Below are positions 51,841 to 55,181 of a DNA stretch of 60,347 bases, piece after piece. The position numbers and the translations under genes were made by a program. Source of the stretch: Hyphomicrobiales bacterium (GTDB lineage Bacteria; Pseudomonadota; Alphaproteobacteria; Rhizobiales; Methyloligellaceae); assembly GCA_021775575.1 (NCBI GenBank), contig JAJFHO010000164.1:1-60347 (forward strand), in the 5' to 3' direction. Every line of letters begins with the position of its first letter. The stretch's first letter is position 1. Below the pieces are notes generated by a model. The model was not told where the DNA came from and did no database searches. It worked only from the letters and a program-made list of their open reading frames with translations.

Positions 51841-51871
51841 TTGACATGGCAATATATAAGTGTATATACAC
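51841..51871 (+). promoter_or_regulatory. promoter and operator of the MarR gene
   Basis: TTGACA (51841-51846) and TATACA (51865-51870) are spaced by 18 bases. The perfect palindrome GTGTATATACAC (51860-51871) overlaps the -10, and the longer form AAGTGTATATACACCT is nearly symmetric. A near copy sits before the next gene, so this is probably the operator of the MarR protein encoded just downstream. Confidence 0.65.
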
Positions 51872-51904
51872 CTATAGAGATTCATTTAGAGGAGACGATG
51901 GCAC

Positions 51905-52327
51905 ATGGCGGGCCGTGATAAATTTGGCGACTGCGCCTGTTTCAATCTGCGCCGCGCCGCGCGACTGGTGACGCAAGCCTATGACCAGGTACTGGCGCCA
52001 TCGAAACTGAAGGCGACTCAGTTCACTCTATTGGCCGTGCTGGCGCCCGCCGGGAAGGGGATTGCGATTTCCGCTCTGGCGGAAAAGCTCGGCATGGACC
52101 GTACGACGCTTACGCGCAATCTCGCTGTGGTTGAACGCGCGGGCCTGGTGTCGCTAAGGCCGGGGGAGGACCCCCGGACAAAGCTGGTCAGCCTCACGGC
52201 AAATGGGCGCAAAGCGCTCGAAGAAGCGGTGCCACTATGGCGCGAGGCGCAGTCGGAGGCAATCGACCGCCTCGGAGACGAATGGGGAGATTTTCTGAAA
52301 ATGACGCGGCGCATCGCTGCGATCTAG
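51905..52327 (+). CDS. MarR-family regulator
   Basis: This 140-residue MarR protein has a winged helix with ISALAEKLGMDRTTLTRNLA and the wing RPGEDPRTKLVSLTANG. The start is ATG 51905; an ATG at 51898 in another frame would encode only six residues. GAGGAG lies upstream. Two Cys near the N-terminus (FGDCACFNLRRAARLV) are typical of redox- or drug-responsive relatives, but the ligand is unknown. The operator-like palindrome over its promoter indicates autorepression. Confidence 0.9.
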   Translation: MAGRDKFGDCACFNLRRAARLVTQAYDQVLAPSKLKATQFTLLAVLAPAGKGIAISALAEKLGMDRTTLTRNLAVVERAGLVSLRPGEDPRTKLVSLTANGRKALEEAVPLWREAQSEAIDRLGDEWGDFLKMTRRIAAI

Positions 52328-52383
52328 GGCTCGATTTGCGATTGGTCAACCGCACTTGGGCCGGTCGATTTTTGACATTAAAG

Positions 52384-52395
52384 GTGCATATACAC
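52384..52395 (+). promoter_or_regulatory. second copy of the MarR operator
   Basis: GTGCATATACAC differs by one base from the palindrome at 51860-51871. It lies 18 bp before the start of the membrane-protein gene, next to its AAAGAGGAG site, downstream of a TTGACA at 52372-52377. Binding here would block expression of that gene. Confidence 0.55.
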
Positions 52396-52413
52396 GTAAA
52401 GAGGAGAAAAAAC

Positions 52414-53085
52414 ATGAACCGCAGAATCGATGCAGGACCGGGCGCAGTGTCGCCTGTCGTCTGGGCAACCGGAGCCGCCGCAACATTATGGATCGCTGCG
52501 GTGACGGGGTTGGCGATCGATGGAGCTTTCGCGTTGGAGCCCGGAGTTCCGCCGCTACGCACTCTGGCGATGGTCGTCGGGCCGCCCTTGTTGTTTGCCG
52601 CGGCGCTGGTCCTGTTTGAGAATTTCAGAAAGCTGATGCTTTCGATCGATCCCGCTTTGCTGACAGCCCTGCAGAGCTGGCGTGTTCTGGGCGGGGGTTT
52701 TCTGTTCGTCTATTCCTTTGGCCACCTGCCTGGCTTATTTGCCTGGCCGGCGGGTCTTGGCGATGTCGCGGTGGGGATCGGTGCGCCATTCGCCGCGCTT
52801 GCTTTGGCGCGAGGCCGTTTGGCGATCACGAGCGGCCGATTTCTCGCCGTCCACGCCGCCGGACTCCTGGACTTTGTCGTCGCTGTCGGAGCGGGGATAG
52901 CGACGCGCGGCCAGGTCCCCGGACTTGTCGAAGGCGTGACGTCTTCGGCGATGGGCGAGCTGCCGCTTGTGCTCGTTCCAGCCCTGGCTGTACCGGCCTT
53001 TATCATTTTGCACATGATCGTGCTGGTGCAGGTCTGGCAAGCCCGGACCGAGAAGCTGCCTCTCGCCGGGGCGGCAGCCCATTGA
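52414..53085 (+). CDS. predicted inner-membrane protein of unknown function
   Basis: This 223-residue protein has about six hydrophobic segments (for example TLWIAAVTGLAI, LFAAALVLFENF and FIILHMIVLVQVW) and no recognised motif. The start is at ATG 52414 with a strong AAAGAGGAG site; the open frame upstream runs through the MarR gene region and is not real. The shared operator and adjacent MarR gene suggest it is the regulated target, perhaps a small transporter or stress protein. That is inference from context only. Confidence 0.8.
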   Translation: MNRRIDAGPGAVSPVVWATGAAATLWIAAVTGLAIDGAFALEPGVPPLRTLAMVVGPPLLFAAALVLFENFRKLMLSIDPALLTALQSWRVLGGGFLFVYSFGHLPGLFAWPAGLGDVAVGIGAPFAALALARGRLAITSGRFLAVHAAGLLDFVVAVGAGIATRGQVPGLVEGVTSSAMGELPLVLVPALAVPAFIILHMIVLVQVWQARTEKLPLAGAAAH

Positions 53086-53178: not shown

Positions 53179-54861
<1,683 letters not shown>

Positions 54862-54890
54862 TTATTGATGGGGGTGGGCGTGCAGGCCAT

Positions 54891-55181
54891 TCAGCCTTCA
54901 AGCACCCCCATGATGTCGGATTCTTTCATGATCAACAGGTCCTCGCCGTCGATCTTGACCTCGGTGCCCGACCATTTGCCGAACAGTACCTTGTCTCCGG
55001 ATTTCACGTCGGGTGTGATGATCTTCCCGTCTTCGCCGGGACCACCCGGGCCGACCGAGAGGACTTCACCGGTCTGCGGTTTTTCCGCGGCCGTATCGGG
55101 AATGATGATCCCGCCGGCCGATTTCAGATCTTCTTCGATGCGCCTTACAACGACGCGGTCATGGAGTGGACGAAATTTCAT
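54891..55181 (-). CDS. groES: 10-kDa co-chaperonin GroES
   Basis: This 96-residue lid of the chaperonin has the mobile-loop region ([21 protein letters not shown], cited in part) and the final [14 protein letters not shown]. It is the first gene of the groESL operon. Upstream are a promoter-like pair, CIRCE, and an 18-bp palindrome in the leader. Confidence 0.97.

Follow-up and report, generated by a model that had tools for sequence, protein, structure and literature searches.

The closest relative of solved structure for the regulator analysed here is MosR (Rv1049) of Mycobacterium tuberculosis, which detects H2O2 via Cys10 and Cys12 and regulates rv1050, a gene for a short-chain dehydrogenase, according to the accessible part of the report (PMC11351531). 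The disulphide between these cysteines is described as lying within one chain (PMC5823404). SCO3205 of Streptomyces coelicolor, as far as the accessible part of its report goes, resembles our locus in having two operators, one each for its own and a neighbouring gene, and in base contacts made by helix residues of the same spacing as those discussed below; it differs in its operator with a TT/AA core, its divergent target gene and its C-terminal tail (PMC3737563). Likewise, SydR of Sinorhizobium meliloti is presented as a redox-sensing MarR regulator with two identical inverted repeats, serving its own gene and a neighbour, whereas the operator TATCGCGATA, the redox-sensing C16 and the divergent arrangement set it apart (PMC11633110). 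Regulators and motifs have also been correlated or compared in studies of GntR, MerR, LacI and IclR regulators, but these, to judge from the accessible text, concern other families, and the accessible portions of the OsbR, BosR and AcsR papers hold no site comparable to ours.

The window, i.e. the whole 60,347-nucleotide stretch of DNA analysed here, contains an ORF for a MarR regulator of 140 amino acids at positions 51905–52327 (+ strand). It was placed in the MarR family by PF12802 (36.1 bits, cut-off 27) and PF01047 (25.4 bits, cut-off 24.6), and among proteins of solved structure it comes closest to M. tuberculosis MosR (PDB 4fx0/4fx4, E 3.4e-32). A profile search of solved chains gave MosR an E value of 4.2e-41 and the next chain 2.3e-15. 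The codons for Cys10-Ala11-Cys12 (51932–51940, +) align with MosR Cys10/Cys12, both in our alignment and in the PDB alignments. Thus, MosR as the closest solved homolog and the N-terminal pair Cys10 and Cys12 mark the protein as MosR-like. The recognition helix D65-R66-T67-T68-L69-T70-R71-N72 is encoded at 52097–52120 (+) and is nearly identical to that of MosR (ERTTLTRN in MosR, DRTTLTRN here). The targets of the two regulators differ: that known for MosR from the accessible text is the dehydrogenase, and that of the window regulator would be a membrane protein that falls into no named family. Both cysteines are invariant across 13 aligned proteins; of 246 homologs, 242 have the first and 179 the second, and all 67 that lack the second keep the first. 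The cysteine pair, like the family-wide coupling between operator and recognition helix, goes beyond the first-pass annotation, which was made from the sequence alone. The sole OhrR model among the matches, NCBIfam NF052638, scored 39.5 bits against a cut-off of 200. We found no experiment on the window regulator. A phage search gave no match, no mycobacterial record was among the best 30 of 184 matches listed in the plasmid search, and no mycobacterium was named among the matching genomes when the family search included control genomes.

The predicted operator O1, GTGTATATACAC, is a perfect 12-bp palindrome at 51860–51871. A candidate −35 element of the marR promoter, TTGACA, lies at 51841–51846 (+), and with a spacer of 17–18 nt the −10 element would sit inside the palindrome; a likely ribosome-binding site, AGGAG, follows at 51890–51894 (+). 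The second predicted operator, O2 (GTGCATATACAC; 52384–52395), is one base away from O1 and lies 18 nt 5′ of the ATG of the adjacent membrane-protein gene, between a candidate −35 element (TTGACA, 52372–52377, +) and a likely ribosome-binding site (AGGAG, 52402–52406, +). Unlike O1, which would cover a −10 element, O2 occupies the spacer of its candidate promoter. Both palindromes had been pointed out in the first-pass annotation and are present as described. Its further statement that the first overlaps the marR −10 holds for the position; since a strict sigma-70 scan detected no promoter at either candidate promoter, the −10 assignment itself is plausible only, by its spacing from TTGACA. 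O1 and O2 are the sole matches to the palindrome in the window at up to two mismatches. As 0.27 matches are expected by chance and 5 of 100 shuffles reached two, the pair is only modestly unusual within the window. The annotation had proposed a genome scan as a check, and in the whole genome (4,061,451 bases) the only matches with at most one mismatch were O1 and O2. Up to two mismatches gave 24 places, compared with 52 for a reversed control pattern. With no third genomic site at one mismatch or less, the circuit appears dedicated and local.

To follow the operator in related genes, we used a homolog profile (A1) built from the 13 aligned proteins. It matched 106 of 386 genomes of the class, 87 of 397 genomes of a phylum draw and 21 of 302 genomes of the class of another centre, the three draws being partly overlapping. 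From the class matches we took 30 loci and 80 stretches, mostly the best of those listed; with earlier loci, this first set amounted to 124 rows, including one spurious low-scoring row, and 122 had enough upstream sequence. All 4096 six-base half-sites were then counted de novo as palindromes, with up to one mismatch allowed. GTGTAT ranked first of the 4096 upstream of the related marR genes, in 38 of 122 rows. In the 200 nt that follow the marR stop it was found in 24 of 124 rows, and inside coding sequence in 0 of 122, and the reversed control palindrome was absent upstream (0/122), downstream and in coding sequence. Pooled over 246 homologs, a recognisable site was detected in 161, against 14 of 246 coding controls, under a relaxed site definition drawn up after the data were seen. 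In the other 85, no site could be recognised over 230 nt upstream and 200 nt downstream. A second site 3′ of marR is present in 69 of the 246 rows, and GTG-type sites occur both before and after marR in 32. This recurrence at homologous marR genes lends comparative support to the shared operator and the autoregulation proposed in the annotation.

At individual loci, L015 and L016 carry GTGTAATTACAC, and no site was found in L011. De novo half-site counts on groups without sites (L033/34/35/39; L046/49/52/85/102; L087 and kin; L169 and kin; the Pro66-Ser67-Gly70 and DQTTLARA groups) did not produce a convincing palindrome. Of 14 plasmid loci, five had an assigned site. The marR loci on haloarchaeal plasmids of Natrinema and Haladaptatus (L157, L161) have a perfect GTGTATATACAC, a Paenibacillus plasmid locus has GTGTAGATACAC, a one-mismatch form, and two further ones have a GGG-type site. 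As a separate observation, the same perfect operator on haloarchaeal plasmids may mean that the regulator was transferred together with its site.

The gene behind O2 (52414–53085, +) encodes a membrane protein of 223 amino acids. The annotation had called it an uncharacterised six-helix protein, and this description was borne out: six long helices are predicted in the structure model (mean pLDDT 88.7), and the protein matched no Pfam or NCBIfam family. Similarly, none of 18 aligned homologs matched NCBIfam, comparison with the sequences of solved structures returned nothing better than E 0.29, and plasmids gave no match. Fold searches of the PDB revealed no clear counterpart: the best Foldseek E value was 0.7, and VIA-align, with a best Z of 9.4, retrieved mostly helical bundles. 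Outside the window we identified 23 homologs, 11 of them within about 1.5 kb of a MarR gene of this MosR-like family. GTG-type sites were found at eight of these 11 loci, and in seven of the eight a GTG-type site also precedes the membrane gene (two at two mismatches). Among the remaining loci, L066 has a GTTGAT site instead, and L056 and L060 have none. Twelve of the 23 homologs have no nearby MarR of this family, and a GTG-type site was found at 0 of these 12 (contig ends truncate some of these loci). At L057, marR and the membrane gene are set apart by a gene for an EamA transporter, so named from the Pfam match of the same gene in L030; marR and the membrane gene each have their own site, that of the membrane gene being GTGCATATACAC. 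Recurrent linkage together with sites at homologous loci thus supports the membrane gene as a recurrent target of these regulators, which was also the prediction of the annotation.

We also looked at other genes behind operators by family scans of 30 chosen proteins, nearly all from loci with a second site after marR. These included transporters (MFS, MATE, EamA, MMPL), oxidoreductases (SDR, NmrA), 4HBT thioesterases, two proteins with a metallo-beta-lactamase fold, one 2Fe-2S protein and one ketoacyl synthase. No family was assigned to eight of the 30, six of which are homologs of the membrane protein, and two more had matches below the cut-offs only. The common theme of these genes would be detoxification.

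Most likely, a MosR-type repressor acts on O1 and O2 and holds both genes low until it is released by oxidation of Cys10 and Cys12, with its recognition helix choosing the DNA. The reduced dimer would bind O1 over its own promoter and also O2 over the membrane-gene promoter. Oxidation would join Cys10 and Cys12 in a local disulphide, the regulator would leave the DNA, and both genes would be switched on, the membrane protein then presumably having a protective role. On the DNA, Arg66 would read G1, the non-glycine residue 70 would pair with T2 and Arg71 with the G3 register, giving GTG[T/C]AT half-sites. From what sequence comparison can tell, an ordinary autoregulated MosR-type MarR circuit with a dedicated local target is well supported.

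The same operator and target could also serve a MarR regulator that senses a ligand such as a quinone, a phenolic compound or another electrophile, the cysteines being structural or reactive towards electrophiles rather than peroxide. We regard this as rather unlikely, though by no means far-fetched. Efflux pumps (MFS, MATE, EamA, MMPL) and thioesterases behind the operators would be typical of small-molecule stress, and the 67 homologs without the second cysteine also speak for it. However, the near-universal presence of the first cysteine points the other way, and the closest solved relative is, by the accessible accounts, a peroxide sensor with the same cysteine pair. A redox-released repressor remains our preferred reading of the locus.

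When the homologs were sorted by the helix D65-x66-T-T-L-x70-x71-N72, their operators were sorted too. In the first set, GTTGAT was found with 13 of 13 Ala71 proteins. The 80 Arg66-Arg71 proteins had GTG in 50 cases, GGG in two, ATG in two, CTG and GTTGA in none and no site in 26, and the 15 Pro66 proteins had CTG in seven, GTG in one and no site in seven. We then pooled all 161 homologs with a site, a pool that includes the sets from which the rules were formed. For residue 66 and base 1, Arg went with G in 119 of 125 cases (A in five, C in one), Gln with A (8/8), Pro with C (8/8) and Leu with T (5/5); Ala went with T nine times, C twice and A once, and Lys, Ser and Thr occurred once each, with T, A and T. 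For residue 70 and base 2 in the G register, Gly was paired with G in 24 of 26 homologs (A and C once each), and the other residues mostly with T: Thr (T 70, C 1, G 1), Ser (T 14), Val (T 7), Ala (T 5, A 1), Ile and Leu (T 1 each). Residue 71 followed the register: Ala was found with TTGAT in 33 of 33 homologs and Thr in one, and the G register with Arg in 118 of 118, His in six and Lys, Gln and Ser in one each.

Over all 161 homologs, columns 66, 70 and 71 were the most informative of those scanned on base 1, base 2 and register, respectively, and the same columns came out on top among 93 representatives under 60% identity. Residue 66 carried more than twofold as much information on base 1 as any other scanned column. 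For base 2, residue 67 ranked slightly above residue 70 by z-score; the best column for the register reached 0.71 bits, with a runner-up close behind at 0.58 bits. These results suggest that MosR-like MarR regulators probably use a modular, nearly one-residue-to-one-base code within the 12-bp palindrome. Residue 66 would set base 1 (Arg G, Gln A, Pro C, Leu T, Ala T/C), residue 70 base 2 (Gly G, others T) and residue 71 the register of bases 3–4 (Arg G-Y, Ala T-G).

For prediction, the class rules were fixed in writing before the held-out stretches were retrieved. The held-out set contained 89 rows, 54 of them with a prediction; 17 further matches of the phylum draw were left out. The predicted class was found in 40 of the 54, another class in three and no site in 11, and the coding control gave 0 of 89. 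By class, GTTGA was right in 18 of 22 cases, all four misses being Gln66 proteins with ATTGAT, and GGG in 16 of 19, with 13 of these 19 predictions coming from one family group (f216). GTG performed worst (6/13), and among the 35 rows without a prediction a GTG-type site was found in six. No Pro66-Thr70-Arg71 protein was in the set, which puts the CTG rule outside its reach. In a third set of 21 homologs, 15 had the predicted site with no more than one mismatch, two had it with two mismatches and four lacked it; as this set is nearly all of the GTG class, it gauges the operator more than the code. In a fourth set of eight named plasmid loci, the predicted site was found in five of the six for which a prediction was possible.

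Such classes could also reflect shared ancestry of promoter and regulator, with residues 66, 70 and 71 as clade markers and not as the cause. The CTG, GGG and GTTGA classes are indeed mostly one clade each. On a tree from which the helix columns had been excluded, residue 66 changed about ten times, base 1 about 12 times and the Ala71 register once. Well-supported branches offered five independent pairs, of which three to four were concordant in nearly all pairings and none discordant (median p 0.125); with only five, the pairs fall short of significance. As these changes are few and linked to clades, they do not prove that the helix residues are the cause. Against ancestry, however, stands the rank of precisely these three columns among those scanned, with the more than twofold lead for base 1. 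Moreover, the code is combinatorial across groups, which argues for causation: Ala66 with Gly70 goes with CGG (L099), Leu66 with Gly70 with TGG (five loci), Gln66 with Ala71 with ATTGAT (4/4) and Gln66 with Arg71 with ATG (L118). Finally, in the SCO3205-DNA crystal, as given in the accessible text, Arg72, Ser73 and His77 make major-groove base contacts (PMC3737563), and their spacing suggests that they correspond to residues 66, 67 and 71 here. Ancestry as the whole explanation therefore seems improbable, and we favour the helix residues as the likely cause of base choice. That the palindromes are chance AT-rich repeats or another factor's sites is scarcely credible and was rejected on the genome scan and on the recurrence upstream of related marR genes in many genomes: the window shuffles with equal matches would allow it, but the site reappears on plasmids, at two haloarchaeal loci and, one mismatch away, at the Paenibacillus locus, and the operator covaries with the regulator itself.

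The residue-to-base code for this branch is the part that deserves attention. There are numerous MarR regulators, many of them uncharacterised, and it is difficult to guess their operators. The single window studied here opens onto a large cysteine-bearing branch in which the operator is often predictable from few residues, whose combinations behave additively. If this is true, the protein alone would suffice to read the operator and local target for many uncharacterised bacterial members and for some haloarchaeal ones, and regulons could be predicted and targets, such as an orphan membrane protein, assigned quickly. For M. tuberculosis MosR the code predicts a GTG[T/C]AT half-site, which can be checked at once against the existing MosR-DNA structure. 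In the open literature we found no paper with GTGTATATACAC. Matches to the other operator strings were unrelated by title, with one Haloferax promoter paper containing a single CTGCATATGCAG. No MarR covariation study was found there either; most subscription papers lie outside this coverage, so this is weak evidence for novelty.

Several further observations concern genes near the operators. MATE-like efflux genes lie behind Pro66 regulators that have CTG operators in L074, where Pfam identifies MatE, and in L084, L117 and L122, where the assignment was made by look. On a Pseudomonas aeruginosa plasmid (L152), a MarR gene with GGGTATATACCC lies 5′ of an MFS gene and a gene for glutathione peroxidase. 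A search of the open literature for a paper with two of the genes PA1285–PA1287 found none. A clade with Ala71 (L293–L296, L300 and 31 loci of the genome sets) carries GTTGATATCAAC, as in L293 of Paracoccus denitrificans PD1222, or a near form, at two mismatches in L294, and on named plasmids DUF899, VOC, YciI or GST genes are nearby.

In the window itself, a GNAT acetyltransferase gene (PF13480; 50427–51728, −) points away from marR in a divergent arrangement, some 130 bp from O1, and could be a further target of the regulator. A similar ORF, recognised by eye, flanks marR in L006. After the membrane gene, groEL and groES ORFs follow on the opposite strand (53179–55181), and groES/groEL-like ORFs, also judged by eye, stand beside the MarR gene in L014.
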